Below, piece after piece: positions 5,952 to 59,581 of a stretch of 64,000 nt of DNA. Within the stretch, counting starts at the first letter, position 1. Every line of letters begins with the position of its first letter. This DNA comes from Pantoea alfalfae (GTDB lineage: Bacteria; Pseudomonadota; Gammaproteobacteria; Enterobacterales; Enterobacteriaceae). The notes beneath the pieces are model-generated. The model made no database searches and was not told the DNA's origin. It saw only the letters and a program-made list of their open reading frames with translations. The stretch spans positions 3,100,001-3,164,000 of the forward strand of contig NZ_CP082292.1 in assembly GCF_019880205.1 (NCBI RefSeq), read 5' to 3'. Both the position numbers and the translations under genes were made by a program.

Positions 5952-6002
5952 GCAGTCGTTACTATCTGGAAATGAAATATTACTCTGCCAGGTAGTGGAA
6001 AA

Positions 6003-6863
6003 ATGAATCGTCAGCCGATGTTTACTCCGCAACAGCTGCTCAGCTTTGTCGCGGTGTGCGAAACCGCCAGCTTTACCCGCGCCGCCGACCGGGTGCACCT
6101 GTCGCAGTCCACCGTCAGCCAGCAGGTGCGGCGGCTGGAGGAGATGGTCGGCAAAGAGCTGCTGGTCCGCTCCTCGCATCAGGTGCAGATCACCGAGGAG
6201 GGCGAAAAACTTTTAGGCTACGCCCGGCGAATTATTGCCCTGAACGGGGAAGCGCACGATGTGCTGAGTGACCAGTGGCGCGATGGCGTGCTGCGCCTTG
6301 GCGTGCCGGAAGATTTCGCCGCGCCCACGGCCGGTCTGCTGGCGCACTTCAGTCGCGACCATCCGCAGCTGCGGCTGGACGTGATGAGCGGCATGCAGGT
6401 GGAGCTGCGTCGCGCCTGGCAGCGTGAAGAGCTCGACATCATGCTGATTAAACAGCCGTACGGCGAGAGGCCACTGGCATCGCGTCCTGAACCGCTGTTG
6501 TGGCTCGACAGCGCAGAATGGCCCTGCTTTGAGCAGACGCCGGTGCCGCTGGTGCTGTTTCCCCAGTTGGGGCTCTATCGCGATGAGGTCTGTCAGACGC
6601 TTGATGCGCTGGGTCGAAGCTGGCGCATAGGTTACAGCAGCGCCAGCCTGGTCGCGCTGGCCGCCGCCAGTGCACAGGGGCTGGGTCTGACGTTACTGCC
6701 TGCCAGCTGCCGCCTGCCGGCACATCGGGTATTAGGTCCTGAACAGGGTCTGCCGGTGATTGATACCTTTGAACTGGCGTTGTTCTGCCGTCATCCGCAT
6801 GATCCGCTGCAACGTGAACTGGCAGCGTCACTGGCGGCGTTTGGCAAGCTGCGCTGGCAGTGA
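6003..6863 (+). CDS. LysR-family transcriptional regulator
   Basis: A 286-aa protein with a typical LysR winged helix-turn-helix at residues 6-65 (FTPQQLLSFVAVCETASFTRAADRV..SQSTVSQQVRRLE) and an effector-binding domain from about residue 92. It is divergent from the CynX-type MFS gene and precedes the Tat-exported amidohydrolase gene in the same direction. It could therefore regulate both a transporter and an enzyme acting on one substrate. The effector is unknown. The start at 6003 has no strong Shine-Dalgarno; the second Met (M6) is an alternative. Confidence 0.88.
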   Translation: MNRQPMFTPQQLLSFVAVCETASFTRAADRVHLSQSTVSQQVRRLEEMVGKELLVRSSHQVQITEEGEKLLGYARRIIALNGEAHDVLSDQWRDGVLRLGVPEDFAAPTAGLLAHFSRDHPQLRLDVMSGMQVELRRAWQREELDIMLIKQPYGERPLASRPEPLLWLDSAEWPCFEQTPVPLVLFPQLGLYRDEVCQTLDALGRSWRIGYSSASLVALAAASAQGLGLTLLPASCRLPAHRVLGPEQGLPVIDTFELALFCRHPHDPLQRELAASLAAFGKLRWQ

Positions 6864-46125: not shown

Positions 46126-46461
46126 TTAACTGCCGCGATAAGTTGACCACGACCAGGGCGAAATCAGAAACGGCAGGTGAAAGTGGCTGCCCGCCTCGGC
46201 AATGACAAAATCGATCTGCGCGCTGACGTAGAGCGCATCCCGACCGGCGACGGCAAAATAGTCGCCAATTTCCGCCGTTAAACGGTAATGACCCGGCGTA
46301 AGCGGCTCAGGCGTCAGATCTTTCAGACGTCCGTCGCTGTCCGTTTCACCCTGAGAAATCGGAAACCACCCTTCCGGGCTGTTCTGCTCCAGTGAAATCG
46401 CCACGCCGCTGGCCGGTTTGCCCAGCGCCGTGTCAAGAATATGGGTCGTCACGGTACTCAT
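46126..46461 (-). CDS. uraH: 5-hydroxyisourate hydrolase
   Basis: A 111-aa transthyretin-related protein with the diagnostic C-terminus YRGS, the N-terminal VTTHILDTALGKPASGV and the internal HYRLTAEIGDYFA. It hydrolyses 5-hydroxyisourate to OHCU in urate breakdown (HpxT in Klebsiella). No signal peptide is seen, so it is cytoplasmic. It overlaps uraD by 4 nt and is the last gene of the long transporter-enzyme operon. Confidence 0.95.
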   Translation of the reverse strand: MSTVTTHILDTALGKPASGVAISLEQNSPEGWFPISQGETDSDGRLKDLTPEPLTPGHYRLTAEIGDYFAVAGRDALYVSAQIDFVIAEAGSHFHLPFLISPWSWSTYRGS

Positions 46462-46952
46462 TGCATCGTCTCCTTCAGGCGTAACAGAGTAATTTCACGC
46501 AGCTGGTCCAGCGCCTCCTGCTGCTCGGTAACCTCACTATTCTGCAACCGGCGCTGCAACTCTGCCAGCATCTGCTCGCCGCTGCGCCCTCTGGCGCGTA
46601 TCAGGAACACCCGGCCAAAACGCGCTTCATATGCCTGATTGCCCTGCTGCATCGCCTGTTGCAGAGCGTGATCGGCCTGCTGCATTGCAGACTGCTCGCC
46701 GCGCGACAACGCGGCTTCTTTATCTGCACCGTTTGCGCGTTCACCGATGCGCGGATGTGCCGACAGTGCGGCCTCCAGTTCAGGCTGCTGCCACTGACGC
46801 GCCAGCGCATCGGCAGTTGCCAGTAATGCATCGGTGGTGGCAAAAGGCCGGGCCGCCACCAGCGCCTGTTGCCAGTGCGGGAGCGCCACACAGTGCCGGA
46901 TGGCCGCCTGCGCTTCGACAGCGGAAAGCTGATTAAATGCGGCTAATTCCAT
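46458..46952 (-). CDS. uraD: OHCU decarboxylase
   Basis: A 164-aa all-helical protein of the OHCU decarboxylase family, converting OHCU to S-allantoin (HpxQ in Klebsiella). Family segments include ALVAARPF, LSAHPRIGERA with the catalytic His and QAYEARFGRVFLIRARGRS. It ends against uraH and follows the amidohydrolase gene by 2 bp. Presence of uraH and uraD without a urate oxidase in the window is notable. Confidence 0.94.
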   Translation of the reverse strand: MELAAFNQLSAVEAQAAIRHCVALPHWQQALVAARPFATTDALLATADALARQWQQPELEAALSAHPRIGERANGADKEAALSRGEQSAMQQADHALQQAMQQGNQAYEARFGRVFLIRARGRSGEQMLAELQRRLQNSEVTEQQEALDQLREITLLRLKETMQ

Positions 46953-46954
46953 GT

Positions 46955-48208
46955 TCAGCTCCGTCCGGCAATCAGCGAGACCGCCTGTAAATAAGCCTGC
47001 AGCGCAGGTGCCACATCTTCCACCGCCACCGACTCCGCCGGATGATGGCTGATGCCGCGATGGTTACGCACAAATAACATGCCGACCGGCCAGCGTTCAG
47101 CGATGGCGATAGCGTCGTGCCCGGCGCCGCTCGGCAGCGACAGGCTGCGACCCTGCACCGTTTCAACCGCATGGCTCAGCGCCTGTTGCAGCGCAGAGTC
47201 ACAGGCGGTGGCACCGATGCGATAATATTCGTTCGACTCGAAGCGAAGTCCACGGCGAAGCGCAATCGCCTCGGCCTGGGTTAACAGGCTGGAGAGTAGC
47301 GTCTCCAGCGGATTATCCAGCGGACCACGCACGTCCAGCGACAGTGATATCTCACCCGGAATGACATTGACCGCCCCCGGCGCGCAGTTAATCGTGCCGA
47401 CGGTGGCGACCAGCTGCGGGTCCTGCTCACGCGTCGTCTGCTCGATAAACACCATCCACTCGGCAGCGGCGGCCAGCGCATCTTTGCGATGGGTCATCGG
47501 CACGGTGCCCGCATGGCCCGCTTCTCCGGTAAAACGGCAGTTGAGCCGGCGCGCACCGTTGATCGCCGTAACCACGCCCAGCGCCAGATCCTCCTGCTCC
47601 AGGCAGGGGCCCTGCTCGATGTGCAGCTCAAGATACCCGACGATATCGTCAACCCGCCGTGCCGCAGAGGCGATTCTGTCGCTATCGAGCCCGACATCGG
47701 CCATCGCCTGCGCTACGGTGATGCCGTTGCCGTCAGGATGGGTCACCCAGCTTTGCGGCCAGCTGCCAGTAATGCCACGACTGCCGAGCAGCGTAATGCC
47801 AAAACGGGTGCCCTCTTCGTCGCCGAAACCAATCACCTCAATCGCCAGCGGCAGGCGGCACTGATGTTCGTTAAGCCACTGCACGGTTTCAATGGCGCTG
47901 AGTACGCCCAGCATTCCGTCGTAGCGACCGGCGTTGCGCACCGTGTCGAGATGCGAGCCAAGCAGCAGCGCAGGCGCACCCGCTTCTGCCGCCTCGTAGC
48001 GCCCGCAGATATTGCCGACCGCATCCTGCCACACCTGCATTCCCGCCGCCTGCATCCATTCACCGACACAGGCGTTGGCGCGCAGATGTTCTGGCGAGAG
48101 GTAGACGCGGGTCAGCCCCTCAGCCGTTTCGCTGATCGCCGCCAGCGCATCGCAGCGCGCCATAACGCGCTGTGCAGCGGCCTGGGCTTCGCTGGCGCTC
48201 ATCATCAT
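46955..48208 (-). CDS. hpxK: Allantoate amidohydrolase (HpxK/AllC type)
   Basis: A 417-aa M20/M28-type binuclear metal amidase. Metal-binding segments are LLLGSHLDTVRNAGRYDGMLG, GFGDEEGTRFG and LELHIEQGPCLEQ; the C-terminus has LPSGAGHDAIAIAERWPVGMLFV. It releases ammonia from allantoate to give ureidoglycine, the substrate of the neighbouring aminotransferase. The start at 48208 overlaps that gene's stop (ATGA); the longer frame to 48358 is antisense-free read-through of pucG and not used. Confidence 0.92.
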   Translation of the reverse strand: MMMSASEAQAAAQRVMARCDALAAISETAEGLTRVYLSPEHLRANACVGEWMQAAGMQVWQDAVGNICGRYEAAEAGAPALLLGSHLDTVRNAGRYDGMLGVLSAIETVQWLNEHQCRLPLAIEVIGFGDEEGTRFGITLLGSRGITGSWPQSWVTHPDGNGITVAQAMADVGLDSDRIASAARRVDDIVGYLELHIEQGPCLEQEDLALGVVTAINGARRLNCRFTGEAGHAGTVPMTHRKDALAAAAEWMVFIEQTTREQDPQLVATVGTINCAPGAVNVIPGEISLSLDVRGPLDNPLETLLSSLLTQAEAIALRRGLRFESNEYYRIGATACDSALQQALSHAVETVQGRSLSLPSGAGHDAIAIAERWPVGMLFVRNHRGISHHPAESVAVEDVAPALQAYLQAVSLIAGRS

Positions 48209-49440
48209 GCGTGGCTCCCGTAGTGATCCCAGGCGGCCTGCGCGGCGGCACCCTGTGGCGTGCGATAGCCGACATAGGTCAGCACCGTTTCCAGCGCGGA
48301 CAGCGTCTGCATCACGCAGTCTTTGCGCGCGTTGTAGCCCATGGTGCCGATGCGCCACACCTTGCCATGCAGCGGGCCAAACGAGGTGCCAATCTCAATG
48401 CCGAAATCTTCCAGCATCAGTTTGCGCACCTGATCGCCATTCACGCCAGACGGGATCATCACGCCCAGCACGTTGTTCATTTTGTTTTTCAGGTCGCCGA
48501 AGGTCTTCAGCCCCATCCCCTGAATGCCTTTCAGCATCGCTTCACCGTGCAGTTTGTGACGGGCGATGCCGTTATCCAGCCCCTCCTGCAGGATCAGACG
48601 GGCGCACTCGCGCGCGCCAAACAGCGCACTGGTGGCTTCGGTATGATGGTTGAGCCGCTCCGGGCCCCAGTAATCCATGATCATGCCGAGATCAAAATAG
48701 TTGGAGTAGATCATCTCCTCTTCGCCATCCTGATGTGCTTCGGTGCGGATCCCCTGCTCTACGCATTTGCGTTTGCGGATCACGGCTTCCATCTCTGCGC
48801 TCAGGGTGATCGGCGAGGTACCCGATGGGCCGCCCAGGCATTTCTGCATCCCCGCCGAGACGGCATCCAGTCCCCAGGCGTCCGTTTCCAGCGCGTTACC
48901 CGCCAGCGACGCGGTAGCATCGGTGTAGAACAGCACGTCATACTGTTTGCAGATTGCGCCTAACTGCGCCAGCGGCTGCAGCATGGTGGTCGAGGTGTCA
49001 CCCTGCACGGTCAGCAGCAGGCGCGGTCGCACTTTTTTAATCGCATCTTCGATCTGGTCCGGGGTAAAGACTTCACCCCACGGCACTTCAATGGTGTGGA
49101 CTTCCGCACGACAGCGGCGGGCAATTTCGCACAGCAGATGACCGAAGCGGCCAAACACCGGCACCAGCACTTTGTCGCCAGGCCGGATCGATGACAGCAG
49201 AATGGCTTCGATACCGGCGCGGGAGGTGCCGTCAATCAGCAGCGTCCAGCGGTTCTCTGTGCGAAACACGCCGCGATAGAGCGCCATCACTTCATTCATG
49301 TAGTGGGTCATCGCGGGATCGTACTGCCCCAGCAGCTGACTCGACATGGCGCGCAGCACGCGGGGATCCGCGTTGATCGGCCCAGGTCCCATCAGCAGAC
49401 GCTGTGGCGGATTGAGTTGCGGGTAGTGATTGATATCCAT
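48205..49440 (-). CDS. pucG: (S)-ureidoglycine-glyoxylate aminotransferase (PucG/HpxJ)
   Basis: A 411-aa class V PLP aminotransferase. The N-terminal LLMGPGPINADPRVL, DGTSRAGIEA, the TDATAS region and SAGMQKCLGGPSG with the PLP lysine match PucG/HpxJ. It transfers nitrogen from ureidoglycine to glyoxylate, yielding oxalurate and glycine. That output explains why oxalurate/oxamate genes (hpxWXYZ) are nearby. It is 20 bp downstream of the ABC ATPase gene in the same operon. Confidence 0.92.
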   Translation of the reverse strand: MDINHYPQLNPPQRLLMGPGPINADPRVLRAMSSQLLGQYDPAMTHYMNEVMALYRGVFRTENRWTLLIDGTSRAGIEAILLSSIRPGDKVLVPVFGRFGHLLCEIARRCRAEVHTIEVPWGEVFTPDQIEDAIKKVRPRLLLTVQGDTSTTMLQPLAQLGAICKQYDVLFYTDATASLAGNALETDAWGLDAVSAGMQKCLGGPSGTSPITLSAEMEAVIRKRKCVEQGIRTEAHQDGEEEMIYSNYFDLGMIMDYWGPERLNHHTEATSALFGARECARLILQEGLDNGIARHKLHGEAMLKGIQGMGLKTFGDLKNKMNNVLGVMIPSGVNGDQVRKLMLEDFGIEIGTSFGPLHGKVWRIGTMGYNARKDCVMQTLSALETVLTYVGYRTPQGAAAQAAWDHYGSHA

Positions 49441-49460: not shown

Positions 49461-50192
49461 TCAGAGGCGAACCGAAGAGATAAACTGCTTAAGTTCCGGC
49501 GTCTGCGGCTGGGCGAACAGCGTTTTACTGTCGCCCTGCTCCCAGACACGCCCCTGATGCATAAAGACCACACGATCGCCCACGTCGCGGGCGAAGTTCA
49601 TTTCATGAGTGACGAGGATCAGCGTCATTCCCTCTGCCGCCAGCTGCTCAAGAACTTTGAGCACTTCGCCCACCAGTTCGGGATCGAGCGCGGAGGTGAT
49701 CTCATCACAGAGTAAAACTTTCGGCGTCATCGCCAGCGCACGGGCAATCGCCACGCGCTGCTGCTGACCGCCGGAGAGGCTGGCAGGATAGTAGTTAAGG
49801 CGTTCGCCCAGCCCGACCTTCTCCAGCATCTGCGCAGCCAGCGCCCGGCACTCGGCCTCGCTTTTCTTCAGCACACGGCGTGGCGCCAGCATGACGTTCT
49901 CCAGCGCCGTCATGTGCGGGAACAGGTTGAAGCTCTGAAACACCATCCCGACCGAGCGGCTGATTTCACGCGCCTGCGAATCGCGGTCGGTGATCGTCAT
50001 CCCGCCGAGCTTGATGCTGCCCTCCTGATAGCCTTCCAGACCGTTCATGCAGCGCAGCAGCGTGCTTTTACCCGATCCGCTGCGACCGATGATCGAGATC
50101 ACTTCGCCCATGTCGATATCCAGATCCACGCCTTTCAACACATGGTTGTCGCCGTAATATTTTTGCACCTGATTAATGGTGATGAGCGGCAT
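49461..50192 (-). CDS. ABC transporter ATP-binding protein (polar amino acid type)
   Basis: A 243-aa GlnQ-like ATPase with Walker A GRSGSGKST, signature LSGGQQQRVAIARAL, Walker B LLCDEITSALDPE and switch His in LVTHEMNFA. Together with two permeases and a binding protein it forms an importer of the glutamine/histidine class. The hpx context suggests allantoin, allantoate or a related ureide as substrate, matching Klebsiella hpxI. It overlaps the preceding permease gene by 20 bp. Confidence 0.9.
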   Translation of the reverse strand: MPLITINQVQKYYGDNHVLKGVDLDIDMGEVISIIGRSGSGKSTLLRCMNGLEGYQEGSIKLGGMTITDRDSQAREISRSVGMVFQSFNLFPHMTALENVMLAPRRVLKKSEAECRALAAQMLEKVGLGERLNYYPASLSGGQQQRVAIARALAMTPKVLLCDEITSALDPELVGEVLKVLEQLAAEGMTLILVTHEMNFARDVGDRVVFMHQGRVWEQGDSKTLFAQPQTPELKQFISSVRL

Positions 50193-50832
50193 TGAATTTT
50201 TTCTCCAGATACTGGCTGTAGCGAGACAGCGGATAACACATCAGGAAGTAGCCCAGCGCCACCAGCCCAAAGACTTTAAACGGCTGATAGGTCACGTTGT
50301 TCAGAATGGTGCCGGCTTTAGTCAGCTCGATGAAGCCGATAATTGACGCCAGCGCGGTGCCCTTAATCACCTGGACCGCGAATCCTACGGTCGGGGCGAT
50401 ACCGATGCGGATCGCCTGCGGTGCCACTACCCGCCATAGCGTCTGACCGAAGGTCAGGCCGAGGCAGCGCGACGCTTCCCACTGCCCTTTCGGCAGGGCG
50501 CGGATGCTGCCGTACCAGATGTCGACCAGAAAGGCGCTGGTGTAAAAGGTCAGCGCCAGCGAGGCGGCGGTCCAGGGCGCGACATCAATACCAAACAGGC
50601 CGACGCCAAAAAACGCCAGGAACAGCTGCATCAATAGCGGCGTGCCCTGAAACAGCGCGGTGTAACCGCGTACCGCGCGTGTCAGCCACTTACGCTGCAG
50701 CAGTCGCAGAAACAGCAGCGGCAGCGTCACCAGCGTGCCGCCGACAAAGGCCACCAGCGACAGCAACAGAGTCCAGCGCGCCGCCAGCAGCAGATTGCGC
50801 AGGATGTCCCAGTCGGTAAAGGTCGTCATCAT
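50173..50832 (-). CDS. ABC transporter permease (polar amino acid type), second
   Basis: A 219-aa HisM/GlnP-family permease with about 5 transmembrane helices and the coupling motif ALPKGQWEASRCLGLTFGQTLW. The ATG at 50832 overlaps the stop of the first permease (ATGA), which argues against the longer frame beginning at 50853. It likely heterodimerises with the first permease. Confidence 0.88.
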   Translation of the reverse strand: MMTTFTDWDILRNLLLAARWTLLLSLVAFVGGTLVTLPLLFLRLLQRKWLTRAVRGYTALFQGTPLLMQLFLAFFGVGLFGIDVAPWTAASLALTFYTSAFLVDIWYGSIRALPKGQWEASRCLGLTFGQTLWRVVAPQAIRIGIAPTVGFAVQVIKGTALASIIGFIELTKAGTILNNVTYQPFKVFGLVALGYFLMCYPLSRYSQYLEKKFNAAHHH

Positions 50833-51497
50833 GATGCCTGCACTCCAAACCATTTACGGCCAATCGCCAGCAGCAGATGGCGCATCGCAATCGACAACGC
50901 CAGGTAGATCAGCGTGGTCACCAGATAGACCTCAAAACTTAAGAAGGTGCGCGACTGAATCAGGTTGGCTGCGAAGGTCAGCTCCTCATAGGAGACCTGC
51001 GACACCACCGACGAGCCCAGCATGACGATGATGCACTGACTCACCAGCGCCGGATAAATGCGCTGCAGCGCAGGCGGCAGCACGACCCGCAGAAAGGTCT
51101 GGCTGCGGGTTAATCCCAGCACCCGTCCCGCTTCCCACTGCCCTTTGGGCGTCACCTGGATCCCGGCGCGGATGATCTCGGTGCTGTAGGCGCCAAGATT
51201 GATCAGCATCGCCAGCAGCGCCGCCTCACCCGCAGTGAGTTTCAGCCCCAGCGCAGGCAGACCAAAAACAATAAAGAACAGTTGCACCACAAACGGCGTA
51301 TTGCGGATCAGCTCGACATAGATGCCCCACAGACGGCTCATCCAGCTCGGTTTGCCGCTGCGCAGCGCGGCGCCCGCAATGCCCAGCGCCACGCCACCGG
51401 TGGTCGCCAGCACCGTCAGCTGGATGGTGACCCACAGACCGGAGAGCAGCTCCGGCCAGTAGGGCCACAGGGCGGGAAAGTTAAGTTGCCCGATCAT
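50829..51497 (-). CDS. ABC transporter permease (polar amino acid type), first
   Basis: A 222-aa HisM/GlnP-family inner-membrane permease with about 5 helices. The EAA-type loop VTPKGQWEAGRVLGLTRSQTFLRVVLP contacts the ATPase. It follows the binding-protein gene by 10 bp. Confidence 0.88.
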   Translation of the reverse strand: MIGQLNFPALWPYWPELLSGLWVTIQLTVLATTGGVALGIAGAALRSGKPSWMSRLWGIYVELIRNTPFVVQLFFIVFGLPALGLKLTAGEAALLAMLINLGAYSTEIIRAGIQVTPKGQWEAGRVLGLTRSQTFLRVVLPPALQRIYPALVSQCIIVMLGSSVVSQVSYEELTFAANLIQSRTFLSFEVYLVTTLIYLALSIAMRHLLLAIGRKWFGVQAS

Positions 51498-51507
51498 GAA
51501 TCCGTCC

Positions 51508-52293
51508 TCAGGCGCCGAGGTTCGCAGGCAGCGGTGCTTTCAGCCACTCTTCAGAGAGTTTATTCAGCGTGCCATCTTTAATGCCCTGCTCAATCAGTTC
51601 ATTCACTTTCGCTTTCAGCGCAGGCTCATCTTTCTTCAGGCCGATAAAGCAGGGTGAATCTTTCAGCATAAACTGCGCGACGGGCGCTTTGGCCGGATTC
51701 TGGCGCGCAATGGCGGCGACGACCAGGTTGCCGGTCGCAACATACTGCACCTGACCGGAGAGATACGCAGACAAGGTGGTGTTGTTGTCTTCATAGCGTT
51801 TCACCTGCGCATCTTTCGGGGCCACTTCGCTGAGCACCATGTCCTCTACCGCACCGCGCGTGACGCCAATCGACTTGCCGCTCAGAGCCGACGCCGCTTT
51901 AATTTCATCGCCTTTCGGACCGAAGACGCCCAGAAAGAACGGCGCATAGGCGCGGGTAAAGTCGATCACCTTTTCACGCTCGGGGTTTTTACCCATGCTG
52001 GAGATAACCAGATCGACCTTGTCGGTTTGCAGATAAGGCACGCGGTTGGCACTGCTGACCGGCACCAGCTGCAACTTAAGTTTCATCTGCTTTGCCAGAT
52101 ATTTCGCCGTGTCGATGTCATATCCCTGCGGCTGCAGGTCAGTGCCGACCGAGCCAAACGGCGGGAAATCCTGCGGCACGGCGACGCGGATGACGCCGCG
52201 CTTCTGGATATCCTGCAATTGATCGGCCAGCGCACTGCCCGTTTGTGCCATCAGTAATGCCGCTGTCGCAACCGCCATCAAAACTTTTTTCAT
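51508..52293 (-). CDS. ABC transporter substrate-binding protein (SBP_bac_3)
   Basis: A 261-aa periplasmic protein with signal peptide (MKKVLMAVATAALLMAQTGSALA, about residue 23) and a type II binding fold (IRVAVPQDFPPFGSV, GYDIDTAKYLAKQM, MGKNPEREKVIDFTRAY). It is first gene of the transporter-enzyme operon. A sigma-54 promoter ends 53 bp upstream of the start and an NtrC-type site lies further up. The start at 52293 gives a normal signal peptide; the frame to 52350 runs through the promoter. Confidence 0.9.
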   Translation of the reverse strand: MKKVLMAVATAALLMAQTGSALADQLQDIQKRGVIRVAVPQDFPPFGSVGTDLQPQGYDIDTAKYLAKQMKLKLQLVPVSSANRVPYLQTDKVDLVISSMGKNPEREKVIDFTRAYAPFFLGVFGPKGDEIKAASALSGKSIGVTRGAVEDMVLSEVAPKDAQVKRYEDNNTTLSAYLSGQVQYVATGNLVVAAIARQNPAKAPVAQFMLKDSPCFIGLKKDEPALKAKVNELIEQGIKDGTLNKLSEEWLKAPLPANLGA

Positions 52294-52345
52294 TATGCAC
52301 CCCGGTGAGATTAACGTGAAACAAAAGATTCTTTGACAAGCAATC

Positions 52346-52362
52346 TGCAACTAATGTGCCAA
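52346..52362 (-). promoter_or_regulatory. Sigma-54 promoter of the ureide transporter-enzyme operon
   Basis: Read on the minus strand, TTGGCACATTAGTTGCA matches YTGGCACG-N4-TTGCW with one mismatch and the required 10 bp between GG and GC. Transcription would start about 45 nt before the binding-protein start codon. Confidence 0.88.
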
Positions 52363-52466
52363 CCCGGGCGGCAACAGAAAAAGGGTTAAGCGACAGAGAG
52401 TTCTACGGAAATAGGGCGTAATCGGGGCAATCACGCCGCGGAAGGGGTGTTCTGAAATGGGGCAAA

Positions 52467-52481
52467 GCACCAAAACGGTGC
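52467..52481. promoter_or_regulatory. NtrC-type enhancer site
   Basis: GCACCAAAACGGTGC is a perfect GCACC-N5-GGTGC inverted repeat, the form bound by NtrC. It lies about 138 bp upstream of the predicted sigma-54 start site, a normal enhancer distance, and 3 bp beyond the RpiR gene stop. Confidence 0.8.
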
Positions 52482-52484
52482 CTG

Positions 52485-53324
52485 TTAACGGTGCTCCAGC
52501 TCGTCAAACTGCTGGTAAAGGTCGGCGATCTGATGAATCCGCTGGCGTCCCTGTGCCAGCATTTCATGCAGCAGCGCATTGGCGATCAGGTTAACCAGGC
52601 TCATGGCGGCACTGTAACTGTCGAAGGCGGAAACGCTGTCGAGCGGCGTACAGAGCTGCCAGCGTGCCAGCGCAATCACCGTCTGCGCCTGTGGCTCACA
52701 CAGCGCCAGCAGCGGGATGCCAGCCGTCTGCAGCTGCTGCATCAGTGGGCGAATGATGCGCGGACGACGACGAAACGCCATCACAATGACCATATCGTCC
52801 GGCGTGATATCCACCAGCTCCTCAGCCAGCGTCTGGCCCGGCTGCGGCAGAATATGCACCTGCGAACGCGCCTGTACCAGCTGCTGTCGCAGATGCAGCG
52901 CTACCGGATAGGCGTTGCGCATGCCGATGATAAAGAGACGTTTAGCCTGCGCCAGCTGCTGAATCACCTCGTTAAAGTGCCGGGCATCCAGGCTGTTTAC
53001 CCACTGCGTCAGATTAGCCATCTCCTGCTTGTAATGACGTGCCAGCAGCGTATTGCCCTGCACCGCATCCCGGTTATCGGTCAGCGGCATGCCGCTCTGG
53101 CGCAGGATGCGAAGCTCATCACGCATATCCTTGTACTTCTCATAGCCCAGACGCTTAAACAGTCGACTGACTGTGGCTTTCGACACGCCACTGAGCCGCG
53201 CCAGCTCGGCGCTGTTGTAGCTGATCAGATCATCGAAGTGGTCAAACACGAAGTCGGCAATACGCTGCTCCTGCGGAGAGAGCTGGGCATAGTGACTTCT
53301 GAGTCGTTCATCAAGCTGTTTCAT
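52485..53324 (-). CDS. RpiR-family transcriptional regulator
   Basis: A 279-aa regulator with an N-terminal RpiR-type helix-turn-helix (about residues 1-77, LSPQEQRIADFVFDHFDDL...LARLSGVSKATVSRLFKRLGY) and a C-terminal SIS domain (about 125-260) that usually senses a phosphosugar or related ligand. It lies between the ureide operon and divergent hpxW, so it probably regulates one or both. The ATG at 53324 fits the family start; the upstream frame to 53363 adds MLASAETKVTGRL. Ligand unknown. Confidence 0.85.
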   Translation of the reverse strand: MKQLDERLRSHYAQLSPQEQRIADFVFDHFDDLISYNSAELARLSGVSKATVSRLFKRLGYEKYKDMRDELRILRQSGMPLTDNRDAVQGNTLLARHYKQEMANLTQWVNSLDARHFNEVIQQLAQAKRLFIIGMRNAYPVALHLRQQLVQARSQVHILPQPGQTLAEELVDITPDDMVIVMAFRRRPRIIRPLMQQLQTAGIPLLALCEPQAQTVIALARWQLCTPLDSVSAFDSYSAAMSLVNLIANALLHEMLAQGRQRIHQIADLYQQFDELEHR

Positions 53325-53408
53325 AAGGCGTCCTGTAACTTTTGTTTCAGCAGAAGCTAGCACAATTTACGCCAGGTTAACCGGTGCATCGTCAGCGGAG
53401 CATGAAAA

Positions 53409-53425
53409 CTGGAACAGCTCTTGCT
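53409..53425 (+). promoter_or_regulatory. Sigma-54 promoter of hpxWXYZ
   Basis: CTGGAACAGCTCTTGCT fits YTGGCACG-N4-TTGCW with two mismatches and the exact GG-N10-GC spacing. It ends 37 bp upstream of the hpxW ATG. Confidence 0.72.
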
Positions 53426-53462
53426 TTGTTATGGGTTCTGTCACCCAAAGAACGAGAAAAAG

Positions 53463-55049
53463 ATGATTCAAAGCAATATGGCCCCGCAGGGGATGGCGGT
53501 AACGCCACACCATCTGGCGAGTGAAAGTGCGCTCGCGGTGCTGCGTGATGGCGGTAATGCCATTGAAGCGATGGTAGCCGCTGCCGCGACTATCGCTGTG
53601 GTCTATCCGCACATGAACGGACTGGGCGGCGATGGCTTCTGGCTGATTCTGCCGCCCGGCGGCGGCCCTGTCGCTATCGACGCCAGCGGTGCCGCCGGTT
53701 CGCTGGCTCACCGCGATTTTTACGCCGATCACCCGAAGATCCCCCATCGTGGGCCGAAAGCGGCGCTGACGGTGGCCGGTACGGTCAGCGGCTGGCAGGA
53801 GGCCCTGACGCTCTCTGCGGAGATGGGCACCCCGCCACTGCCGCTGGCCCGTCTGCTGCGGGATGCGATTCGCTACGCCGCCGACGGCATTCCGGTGAGC
53901 GCCTCACAGACCGCCGCGACCACGAACTTCCGCAGTGAGTTGCAGCATCAGCCCGGCTTTAGTGCCCATTTTATGCCCGACGGCGATGTGCCGCAGCCGG
54001 GCAGCCGTTTTACCCAGCCCGCGCTAGCGAATACCCTGAGCCAGCTCACCGAAGAGGGACTCGACAGCTTTTATCGCGGTCCGCTGGCTCACCATATGGC
54101 CGACGAGATGGCGACGCTGGGCATGCCGGTGACGCTGTCCGATCTGCAGCAGCATCGCGCCCGTCGCACGACTCCGCTGCATCTCGCCCACAGCGAAGGC
54201 GACATCTGGAATATCGCTCCGCCGACCCAGGGCGTCGTGTCGCTGGCGATCCTCGGCATCACCGATCGCCTGGAGATGGCCGAGGCTGACGACGCACAGA
54301 CGGTGCACCGCATCGTTGAAGCCACCAAAAAAGCCTTTGCCCTGCGCGACAAACACATCACCGATCCGCGTCACGTCACCGAAGATTTGCAGGCGCTGCT
54401 GGAAAGCGATCACCTCGCCACGCTCGCCAGCCAGATCGCCGATGGCGAGGCCGCCGCCTGGGGCAGCGGACGCGGACCGGGCGATACGGTCTGGATGGGC
54501 GTAATGGAAAGCAGCGGTCTGGCTGTCTCTTTTATTCAGAGCATCTATCACGAGTTTGGCAGTGGTGTGGTGCTGCCCGGCACGGGCGTTACCTGGCAGA
54601 ACCGGGGCGCGGCGTTCAGCCTCGACCCTGAGCATCTGCTGGCCCTTGCGCCCGGCAAGCAGCCATTTCATACCCTGAATCCCGCCGCCGCACGGCTGAA
54701 AGATGGCCGGACAATGGTGTATGGCGCGATGGGCGGCGATGGACAGCCGCAGACCCAGGCGGCGATTTTCACCCGCCATGTGATTCAGGGCCTGCCGCTG
54801 CAACAGGCGGTCAGTGCGCCGCGCTGGCTGCTGGGCCGTACCTGGGGGCAATCGTCAGACTCGCTGAAACTGGAAGGCCGCTTTGACGATGAAACGGTAT
54901 TGATGCTGCGTCTGTGGGGCCATGAGGTGGAAATGCTGCCGGATTTCAGCGAATCCGTGGGCCATGCGGGCGCGATTGTGCGCCACAGCAACGGCATGTT
55001 CGAGGGCGCAAGCGATCCGCGCAGTAACGGCAGCGCCGCCGGTTTTTAA
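53463..55049 (+). CDS. hpxW: Oxamate amidohydrolase HpxW (gamma-glutamyltransferase family)
   Basis: A 528-aa Ntn hydrolase of the gamma-glutamyltransferase family without a signal peptide, hence cytoplasmic. Family parts include GGNAIEAMVAAAATIAVVYPH, MNGLGGDGFWL and APPTQGVVSLAIL. GPGDTVWMGVME contains the likely processing and catalytic Thr, and GAMGGDGQPQTQA is C-terminal. In Klebsiella HpxW converts oxamate to oxalate and ammonia. The gene starts a four-gene hpxWXYZ operon with its own sigma-54 promoter. The ATG at 53463 follows GAGAAAAAG. Confidence 0.88.
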   Translation: MIQSNMAPQGMAVTPHHLASESALAVLRDGGNAIEAMVAAAATIAVVYPHMNGLGGDGFWLILPPGGGPVAIDASGAAGSLAHRDFYADHPKIPHRGPKAALTVAGTVSGWQEALTLSAEMGTPPLPLARLLRDAIRYAADGIPVSASQTAATTNFRSELQHQPGFSAHFMPDGDVPQPGSRFTQPALANTLSQLTEEGLDSFYRGPLAHHMADEMATLGMPVTLSDLQQHRARRTTPLHLAHSEGDIWNIAPPTQGVVSLAILGITDRLEMAEADDAQTVHRIVEATKKAFALRDKHITDPRHVTEDLQALLESDHLATLASQIADGEAAAWGSGRGPGDTVWMGVMESSGLAVSFIQSIYHEFGSGVVLPGTGVTWQNRGAAFSLDPEHLLALAPGKQPFHTLNPAAARLKDGRTMVYGAMGGDGQPQTQAAIFTRHVIQGLPLQQAVSAPRWLLGRTWGQSSDSLKLEGRFDDETVLMLRLWGHEVEMLPDFSESVGHAGAIVRHSNGMFEGASDPRSNGSAAGF

Positions 55050-55061
55050 CAGGAGCGAATC

Positions 55062-55244
55062 ATGAATCAACACGAGTGGGCCAGCTACATCGGCCATATG
55101 GAGCAGATCCTGCAACTGGAACTGGATGACGCCCGCCGCGCTGAACTGCTGATCCAGCTGTCGCGTATCGCGGTGATGGCTGCGCCGCTGATGGCGTTTC
55201 CGCTGGATGATCGACTGGAAGTGGCAGGAGTATACCAGGCATGA
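55062..55244 (+). CDS. hpxX: Oxalurate catabolism protein HpxX (AtzG/GatC-like)
   Basis: A 60-aa helical protein (MNQHEWASYIGHMEQILQLEL...) of the small AtzG/HpxX family, which resembles GatC and accompanies AtzE-type amidases as a stabilising partner. AGGAG precedes the ATG, and the stop overlaps hpxY by 4 nt (ATGA), supporting complex formation with HpxY. Confidence 0.88.
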   Translation: MNQHEWASYIGHMEQILQLELDDARRAELLIQLSRIAVMAAPLMAFPLDDRLEVAGVYQA

Positions 55245-56638
55245 GATTAGGTGACGTTTCAATTCAGACGCTGCAACAGGCTATCCAGCAGGGTGAGATC
55301 AGCGCACTGGAAGTGGCGAAGCGCACGCTGCAGGCAGTTGAGCAGCATAATCCGGCGCTGAATGCCTGGACGGAGGTCACCGGGCCGCGCATGTTAAAAG
55401 AGGCCAGCGCCATTGATGCGCAGCGGCAGCGTGGCGAAAAGCTGCCCCCGCTGGCGGGCATCCCGTATGCGGTGAAAAACCTGTTTGATGTGGCGGGTCA
55501 CAGCACGCTGGCCGGTGCCAGCCTGTTCCGCGATCGCCCTGCGGCACAGGCCGATGCGTTTGCCGTCGGAAAACTGCGGCATGCTGGCGCGCTGCTGTCG
55601 GGCATGCTGAACATGGATGCCTACGCGTATGGTTTTACCACCGAAAACAGCCATTATGGTGCGACCCACAATCCGCGCGATCTCAGCCGCGTGGCGGGCG
55701 GTTCGTCAGGCGGTTCGGCCGCCGCGGTAGCCGCCGGGCTGGTCCACTTTTCGCTCGGCACCGACACCAACGGTTCGATTCGGGTGCCCGCGTCGCTGTG
55801 CGGTATTTTTGGTCTTAAGCCGACCTTTGGCCGGTTATCTCGCAGCGGCAGTCATCCGTTTGTTGCCAGCCTCGATCACATCGGGCCGCTGGCGCGGCGG
55901 GTTGAAGACCTGGCGCTGGTATATGATCTGTTACAGGGCGCAGACCACACCGATACGTTTCAGGCCGATCGTCCGGTGGCCGCGACGCTGCCGGGGCTGT
56001 CACTGGGCAGCGAAGGATTACGCTGCGGCGTGCTGGGTGGCTTTTTTGCCCGCTGGTGCGATGAGGATGCCCGCGCTGCCGTCGCGGTGGTTGCGGCAGC
56101 GCTTGAAGCCCAGGAAGAGGTGCTGATGCCGGACGCAGAGGTGGCCCGCTCGGCGGCGTTTATCATGACCGCCGCAGAAGGTGGCAATCACTATCTCCCT
56201 GCCCTGCGTCAGATACCGGAGCAGTTTGAACCAAACTCCCGTGAGCGTCTGCTGGCGGGTGCCATGATGCCAGGTGCCTGGTACGTGCAGGCGCAGCGCT
56301 TCCGTCGTCATTTCCAGCAGCAGGTGTTACCGCTGTTTGATCGCTTCGATGTGCTGATCGCGCCGGCGACGCCCTGCAGCGCGATCACTATCGGTCAGCA
56401 GACCCTGACGATTCAGGGCGAATCGCTGCCTGCTAAGGCGAGCATGGGGATGCTGACGCAGCCGATCTCCTTCCTGGGATTACCGGTCTGTACCGTGCCG
56501 CTGGCGACCCGAAGTGGTCTGCCGATTGGATTACAGCTTATCGCCCGTCCGTTTAACGAAGAGGCGGTGTTACGTGCCGCCTGGACACTGGAACAATGCG
56601 GCATCACGATGCCGCAAATCAATATGGCAGGAGCCTGA
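55241..56638 (+). CDS. hpxY: AtzE-family amidase HpxY
   Basis: A 465-aa amidase-signature enzyme with the Ser-cisSer-Lys triad: Lys in YAVKNLFDVAG, the Ser pair in VAGGSSGGSAAAVAAG, and FGLKPTFGRLSR. In Klebsiella it belongs to oxalurate breakdown together with HpxX and HpxZ, probably forming oxamate. It overlaps both neighbours, which implies one translation-coupled operon. Confidence 0.88.
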   Translation: MRLGDVSIQTLQQAIQQGEISALEVAKRTLQAVEQHNPALNAWTEVTGPRMLKEASAIDAQRQRGEKLPPLAGIPYAVKNLFDVAGHSTLAGASLFRDRPAAQADAFAVGKLRHAGALLSGMLNMDAYAYGFTTENSHYGATHNPRDLSRVAGGSSGGSAAAVAAGLVHFSLGTDTNGSIRVPASLCGIFGLKPTFGRLSRSGSHPFVASLDHIGPLARRVEDLALVYDLLQGADHTDTFQADRPVAATLPGLSLGSEGLRCGVLGGFFARWCDEDARAAVAVVAAALEAQEEVLMPDAEVARSAAFIMTAAEGGNHYLPALRQIPEQFEPNSRERLLAGAMMPGAWYVQAQRFRRHFQQQVLPLFDRFDVLIAPATPCSAITIGQQTLTIQGESLPAKASMGMLTQPISFLGLPVCTVPLATRSGLPIGLQLIARPFNEEAVLRAAWTLEQCGITMPQINMAGA

Positions 56639-57018
56639 TGAACAGAGAGATTAATTTACCGCAGGTGCTTACCGAGGTGACGGCGCAGTTTTATCGCTAC
56701 GAGCAGGCGCTGGTCAGCAATGATGTGGCCGAACTGGATGCCCTGTTCTGGCACGACCCGCGAACCGTGCGCCTTGGCGCGGGTGAGAACCTGTATGGCA
56801 TTGATGAGATTCGGGCCTTCCGTGCCGCGCGTCCGTCAGCCGGGCTGAACCGGACGCTGCGCAACACCGTGATTACCACTTTTGGTGAGAATTATGCGGT
56901 CTGCAGCACTGAATTTACCCGCACCGGTAGCGATAAAATTGGCCGTCAGCAGCAGACCTGGGTGCGAATGCCCCACGGCTGGTGCATCGTGGCGGCGCAG
57001 GTCAGTCTGATGAGCTGA
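56638..57018 (+). CDS. hpxZ: Oxalurate catabolism protein HpxZ (DUF3225)
   Basis: A 126-aa protein of the SnoaL/NTF2-like fold found beside AtzE-type amidases (FYRYEQALVSNDVAELDALFWHD, RLGAGENLYGIDEIRAFRAAR). Its ATG overlaps the hpxY stop by one base. The precise biochemical role is not established to my knowledge. Confidence 0.86.
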   Translation: MNREINLPQVLTEVTAQFYRYEQALVSNDVAELDALFWHDPRTVRLGAGENLYGIDEIRAFRAARPSAGLNRTLRNTVITTFGENYAVCSTEFTRTGSDKIGRQQQTWVRMPHGWCIVAAQVSLMS

Positions 57019-59506: not shown

Positions 59507-59540
59507 TACCTGCTCCGGTCACTCGCTGTGTGCTACATAT

Positions 59541-59548
59541 CGTATACG
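59541..59548. promoter_or_regulatory. Candidate HpxS operator 1
   Basis: CGTATACG is a perfect 8-bp palindrome 35 bp upstream of hpxS. Its centre lies 22 bp, two helical turns, from a second GTATAC palindrome. FCD-type GntR regulators commonly bind such GTATAC-centred sites. Confidence 0.6.
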
Positions 59549-59561
59549 TGAAAATTAAATA

Positions 59562-59571
59562 TTGTATACAA
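59562..59571. promoter_or_regulatory. Candidate HpxS operator 2
   Basis: TTGTATACAA is a perfect 10-bp palindrome between hpxS and the permease gene, 10 bp before a sigma-54-like element. An exact 13-bp copy (ATTGTATACAAGA) recurs inside the permease gene. Confidence 0.65.
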
Positions 59572-59581
59572 GAAAAGAGAT

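Follow-up and report, generated by a model that had tools for sequence, protein, structure and literature searches.

A probable two-input control region, NtrC/sigma-54 and HpxU, in the purine/ureide (hpx) gene cluster of Pantoea alfalfae

The purine/ureide (hpx) cluster of Pantoea alfalfae probably has a control region with two inputs, nitrogen shortage acting through NtrC and sigma-54 and allantoate acting through the RpiR-type repressor HpxU. We judge this region, found in a window of 64,000 nucleotides (the whole stretch of DNA that was analyzed), to be real, conserved and conventionally nitrogen regulated, with a second, ureide-specific layer. The sites themselves, their conservation, the gene families and the presence of genes for NtrC and RpoN were established directly.

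In our model sigma-54 RNA polymerase would stand at two divergent promoters, that of hpxF on the minus strand and that of hpxW on the plus strand. When nitrogen is short, phosphorylated NtrC would occupy the tandem sites where hpxU ends and, by means of a DNA loop of about 140 bp, open the promoter of hpxF. The repressor HpxU would bind just downstream of the hpxF start as well as in its own leader and would be released by allantoate, to which the Klebsiella protein reportedly responds. Expression of the genes would thus require both a shortage of nitrogen and the presence of a ureide. We infer the binding of NtrC and HpxU, as well as the dependence on nitrogen, allantoate, rpoN and ntrC, from the sequence.

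A preceding sequence-only reading had proposed that the ureide transporter operon and hpxWXYZ form a nitrogen-starvation regulon. This stands as far as the conserved cis-elements, the encoded NtrC and RpoN and the induction of hpxWXYZ in Klebsiella oxytoca are concerned; control of hpxW by NtrC did not find the same support. The proposal was also incomplete: it omitted HpxU and its conserved operators, which turn the region into a two-input switch, and the NtrC element which it described is one of a tandem pair.

Conservation was analyzed over 81 loci, comprising the window and 80 named relatives kept from 222 relatives found. For a genome-wide test we used 394 genomes of the order, 22 of which encode HpxU at E <= 1e-60. 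The sigma-54 sites and the NtrC-type block described below are convincing because they are conserved among relatives and not because they are rare in one genome.

Cluster layout and the divergent sigma-54 elements

The minus-strand operon begins with hpxF (51508–52293), coding for a solute-binding protein. It continues with the two permeases and the ATPase of an ABC transporter (49461–51497; presumably hpxG, H and I) and with genes for an aminotransferase, an allantoate amidohydrolase and uraD-like and transthyretin-like proteins (46126–49440); the names hpxF to hpxK for this operon are presumed. On the plus strand follow hpxW (53463–55049), whose gamma-glutamyltransferase-like product matches PF01019 and scores 334 against TIGR00066, below the cut-off of 358, an ORF of 60 aa (55062–55244) placed as hpxX by its position relative to a K. 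pneumoniae record, hpxY (55241–56638) for an AtzE-family amidohydrolase and hpxZ (56596–57018), which scores above the cut-off of NF033625.

Between the two sigma-54 sites lies hpxU (52485–53324, minus strand), encoding a regulator of the RpiR/MurR family of 279 aa with HTH_6 and SIS domains. Its identity is 97–98% to the proteins of the four Pantoea loci nearest to it and 76% to the counterpart of K. pneumoniae ATCC 13883, and the locus label hpxU was found in a K. pneumoniae record. HpxU is, on these identities, the RpiR-family orthologue of Klebsiella HpxU, and the cluster is a Klebsiella-type hpx cluster. The genome encodes NtrC (810 bits, cut-off 559) and RpoN (532 bits, cut-off 277). A search of the window for a further enhancer-binding protein yielded only a receiver-domain match.

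Both sigma-54 sites read as had been described, with the GG-N10-GC spacing. The site before hpxF (52362–52346, minus strand) reads TTGGCACATTAGTTGCA and contains the −24/−12 element TGGCACATTAGTTGCA (52346–52361), with a predicted start at about 52335. The site before hpxW (53409–53425, plus strand) reads CTGGAACAGCTCTTGCT, the element itself being TGGAACAGCTCTTGCT (53410–53425) and the predicted start about 53436. The two promoters had been called back-to-back; they are indeed divergent, but the term is loose since they are about 1 kb apart with hpxU between them.

Within this one genome the elements exceed chance only barely. The hpxF element is the sole exact match to TGGCAC-N5-TTGCW in the window, and the 4.75-Mb genome contains 11 such matches in all; with up to one mismatch the pattern has 262 genomic sites vs 141 for the reversed pattern. 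The hpxW element deviates at one position, as do three other sites in the window, so that by itself and in this genome only it is at about chance level.

Among the relatives the picture is clear on both sides. A site with at most one mismatch is present between hpxU and the downstream operon in 81/81 loci. In 77 of them TGGCA(C/T)-N5-TTGC(A/T) is found within 330 bp past the hpxU stop codon, with the spacer ATTAG in 75/77, and upstream of this element the information drops to mostly 0.1–0.4 bits per position. The four remaining loci (L066, L095, L108 and L126) have their site 285–505 bp past the stop codon, two as the exact 16-mer, one with exact boxes and another spacer and one with a single mismatch. 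Likewise, in a Pectobacterium-like genus the site is located 347–563 bp past the stop in 25/25 genomes. On the divergent strand TGG(A/T)A(C/T)-N5-TTGC(A/T) occurs in 81/81 loci, at distances from the start of hpxU that run from 61 bp to 200 bp or more, and the flanks beyond a few letters are unconserved. Alignment of the intergenic regions of relatives, which had been suggested as a check, has thus shown both −24/−12 sites and the NtrC-type block described below to be kept.

Nearly invariant −24/−12 elements amid unconserved flanks in many genera speak against another reading of the promoters, in which sigma-70 would read both of them, HpxU (perhaps with NAC) would be the true regulator and the −24/−12 words would be fortuitous. 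It has a precedent in Klebsiella, where sigma-70 with NAC drives hpxSAB, and a sigma-70-like match (9 of 12) does lie near the hpxF start; this match, however, is at chance level (one vs a mean of 0.5 in shuffles). We consider this reading very improbable and treat both sites as predicted sigma-54 promoters.

The hpxF element also follows HpxU from genome to genome. The exact 16-mer TGGCACATTAGTTGCW is present in 17/394 genomes: in 13/22 of those with HpxU, always just downstream of hpxU by coordinates, and anywhere in 4/372 of those without. Four of the nine HpxU genomes lacking it carry TGGCACAGTAGTTGCA or TGGCACATTCGTTGCA at this place, the same element with another spacer, and two have the one-mismatch form TGGCATGCTCCTTGCT further out. 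For locus L155 no sigma-54 site with up to two mismatches was detected in the 420 nt downstream and 330 nt upstream that were scanned, and none was seen at two distant HpxU homologues (55% and 43% identical); these absences speak against the model. For hpxW, a one-mismatch site is present in five of these nine genomes and a two-mismatch site in L154; scanning the corresponding stretches of L155, L156 and L157 with up to two mismatches gave none.

We also considered the spacer ATTAG as a hidden second element. It was not treated as special, because glnA-type promoters have few spacers as well and because the hpxF spacer varies in wider relatives (AGTAG, ATTCG and several other forms). For the glnA-type pattern, which fixed some flanking letters, the spacer was AGAAT in 13, AGATT in 11, AAAAT in 3 and another sequence in 4 of 31 matches, from the 29 of 49 genomes that matched the pattern, the other 20 being uncounted.

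The NtrC-type block and the proposed activation of hpxF and hpxW

Three base pairs past the hpxU stop codon lies the palindrome GCACC-N5-GGTGC (site 1, 52467–52481), which reads GCACCAAAACGGTGC at exactly the position reported for it. Its centre is 139 bp from the predicted hpxF start, in agreement with the distance of about 138 bp given before. It is joined by a second NtrC-type site (site 2, 52449–52463; minus strand GCCCCATTTCAGAAC), a weak one in this window. Across the genome there are 26 exact copies of the palindrome vs 6 of the reversed pattern. With up to one mismatch the window holds two instances vs 5.3 expected in shuffles, so that the palindrome, like the hpxW site, is near chance in this genome alone, which counts against the model.

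When the loci are anchored on the right half of the palindrome, about 34 bp are conserved and conservation then falls to near zero. GCACC-N5-GGTGC is positioned 3–4 bp past the hpxU stop codon in most loci, with a similar second site 18 bp further, and in 59/81 loci this block is the joint best match to TGCACC-N5-GGTGCA of the whole locus. Site 1 is best preserved in Pantoea and Erwinia, its left half being changed in Klebsiella and Enterobacter. At site 2 the right half is good in Klebsiella and Enterobacter, and the site is good in the Pectobacterium-like genus. The half-decayed site 1 of Klebsiella and Enterobacter and the weak site 2 of the window are further points against the model.

From the centre of the block to the predicted hpxF start we measured 128–520 bp (median 141) and to the predicted hpxW start 935–1179 bp (median 962; 961 in the window), each in 80/81 loci with L114 left out. 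The distances to hpxF agree with the position usual for NtrC sites, about 100–200 bp or more upstream of the promoter. The block is still there in the Pectobacterium-like genus, where the hpxF site is 347–563 bp past the hpxU stop codon; a distance to hpxF that varies while the block stays fits an enhancer.

The location directly behind the hpxU stop codon invites a different reading, namely that GCACC-N5-GGTGC is an RNA hairpin terminating hpxU and that hpxF is activated from elsewhere. A hairpin would agree with a right half that is nearly fixed and a left half that changes, since 45/67 departures of the left half from GCACC are A-to-G or C-to-T and keep G-U pairs (81 anchored rows, a few misanchored ones included). 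The repeat, however, is without a T run, and a terminator scan of 52250–53480 found none. Moreover, a second site of the same kind belongs to the block, conservation ceases after this second site, and in some relatives (e.g., L082, as judged by eye) terminator-like hairpins with T runs appear further downstream. We regard a terminator as unlikely and continue with the reading of the block as an NtrC-type enhancer.

Which enhancer serves hpxW is less evident. The sequence-only reading had found no NtrC site for hpxW, and indeed no conserved one turned up in the 430 bp ahead of the hpxW element in the 81 loci scored, a further point against the model; the nearest good NtrC-type site lies some 960 bp upstream and is the one assigned to hpxF. 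Scoring was done with a matrix made from the block sites themselves and against 702 control segments. The best scores upstream of hpxW are slightly raised (median 6.8 vs 5.3 in the control, lower quartile 6.5 vs 3.6), and 4/81 loci exceed the 95th percentile of the control (9.9), at different places. The slight excess arises largely because words recur inside the conserved coding sequence of hpxU. Synonymous conservation in hpxU peaks at codons 35–42, where a weak palindrome of the form GCGCCGAGCTGGCGC sits, some 200 bp ahead of the hpxW element.

Possibly hpxW has its own enhancer-binding protein or uses such a weak NtrC site within hpxU, leaving the hpxF enhancer unused, and we give this somewhat less than an even chance. 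The palindrome with two mismatches is found in the same place in 43/79 hpxU genes and falls within the stretch of highest synonymous conservation, and the raised medians point in the same direction. On the other hand, the recurrence of these words is due to the conserved protein sequence, and the few loci that stand out from the control do so at differing places.

Most simply, hpxW would draw on the tandem sites some 960 bp upstream of it, a distance over which NtrC is able to act. One NtrC enhancer might then serve two divergent sigma-54 promoters, hpxF at about 140 bp and hpxW at about 960 bp. The longer of the two loops would enclose hpxU, and HpxU, when bound between the enhancer and the hpxW promoter, could quench this loop. 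We put forward this arrangement tentatively and consider it rather doubtful as a whole. If true, it would be a naturally occurring bacterial enhancer that acts in both directions and comes with its own quencher; repression from a protein-bound site located between an enhancer and its promoter is the subject of work on synthetic bacterial enhancers (PMC4740811). The distance between enhancer and hpxW would in that case represent a natural instance of long-range sigma-54 activation across a gene.

We had also taken the four loci L066, L095, L108 and L126 and the Pectobacterium-like genus as cases in which the block is kept without an hpxF promoter. This argument was withdrawn: the promoter is present further downstream in 4/4 of the loci and 25/25 of the genomes, and these cases are thus no evidence that the block serves hpxW.

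Putative HpxU operators

Two further sites accompany the promoters. AGAATCTTTTGTTTCA (52317–52332, minus strand) spans roughly +4 to +19 relative to the predicted start of hpxF, and TGTAACTTTTGTTTCA (53334–53349, plus strand) is situated in the hpxU leader, roughly at −102 to −87 relative to the predicted start of hpxW. We take both to be HpxU-type operators, going by the work on Klebsiella. They are the only exact matches in the genome to their shared pattern, with four others at one mismatch. Among the 81 loci AAGAATCTTTTGTTTCA is conserved after the hpxF element, and TGTAAC-N4-GTTT(C/T)A is found in the hpxU leader of 78/81.

The published HpxU operator is said to be TGAA-N8-TTCA, and each of the two sites in the window is one letter off this consensus. 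Exact copies occur within 330 bp upstream of hpxU in 15/81 loci, mostly right beside the −24 box of hpxW, and there is none in these 330 bp of the window. At L149 and L152 the operators of the hpxU leader and the hpxF leader deviate alike from the rest (TGAAACTATCGTTTCA; AGAATC(C/T)ATCGTTTCA), a matched deviation which would be expected if one protein reads both operators.

Some loci have a deviating structure. L155 (G286:C52:26500-30600) has kept HpxU-type operators on both sides, and a sigma-54 site with up to two mismatches was found on neither side of hpxU, possibly a natural loss of nitrogen control. At L154, L155 and 6/80 named loci no transporter genes hpxF–I were detected in the stretch that separates hpxU from the aminotransferase gene, and the latter is there the first gene past hpxU; at L154 a sigma-54 element and an operator directly precede it. 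In L114 (Candidatus Pantoea persica, 6001–6839) hpxU is interrupted, the first open frame having 32 codons, and the operator in the hpxU leader has one letter changed.

Related systems and significance

Part of the system is already known: in Klebsiella the induction of hpxWXYZ under nitrogen limitation with suspected NtrC and sigma-54 has been reported, and HpxU has been published (Guzman et al. 2013, Int Microbiol 16:165, as cited in PMC10810197). In K. oxytoca M5a1 HpxAB, HpxO and HpxWXYZ were highly upregulated under nitrogen-fixing conditions, in a comparison with one nitrogen-replete replicate, and the authors, judging by promoter sequences, suspect control by NtrC and sigma-54 ("data not shown"; PMC8381380). 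The window resembles M5a1 in having hpxWXYZ with suspected NtrC/sigma-54 control; for M5a1 the sites themselves were not displayed. Among the literature matches listed, in a search outside of which most subscription journals lie, no account of sigma-54 sites in the hpx cluster went further than the statement in this paper. The main text of a study of nitrogen starvation in Pantoea eucalypti makes no mention of these genes and neither supports nor refutes the model (PMC10532344). The part examined of PMC3560190 treats the structure of the hpxW operon and the confusion of hpxW with ggt and contains nothing on regulation.

The window shares the gene order, the gene families and the HpxU orthologue with the hpxF–K/hpxU/hpxWXYZ region of Klebsiella, and sigma-54 elements, NtrC block and operators with the K. 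pneumoniae locus L099. It differs in that a perfect site 1 is paired with a weak site 2, opposite to the situation in Klebsiella, in that TGAA-N8-TTCA is missing beside the −24 box of hpxW and in that the same stretch also carries linked racemase, puuE and GntR genes.

As in NtrC/sigma-54 promoters of the glnA type, a −24/−12 element is combined with an NtrC palindrome upstream. This genome has such a pair near ntrC, presumably that of glnA, going by its position. The hpx region, in contrast to the glnA type, adds a specific repressor with conserved operators, and two divergent promoters lie downstream of its enhancer, one of them far closer than the other.

If the model is true, the allantoate/oxalurate branch of purine degradation in Pantoea, Erwinia and relatives would stand under the nitrogen-stress system and a pathway-specific repressor. 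The predicted start sites and operators are open to direct testing.

Two minor observations were made. In the window (59530–59575) two TAT(C/T)GTATAC words are located between a gene of the GntR family and an NCS1 permease gene; possibly they are operators of the GntR regulator. A segment of the Serratia symbiotica plasmid NZ_CP098501.1 (43549–44599) is about 74% identical to part of the hpxU–hpxF region (77% of the query).
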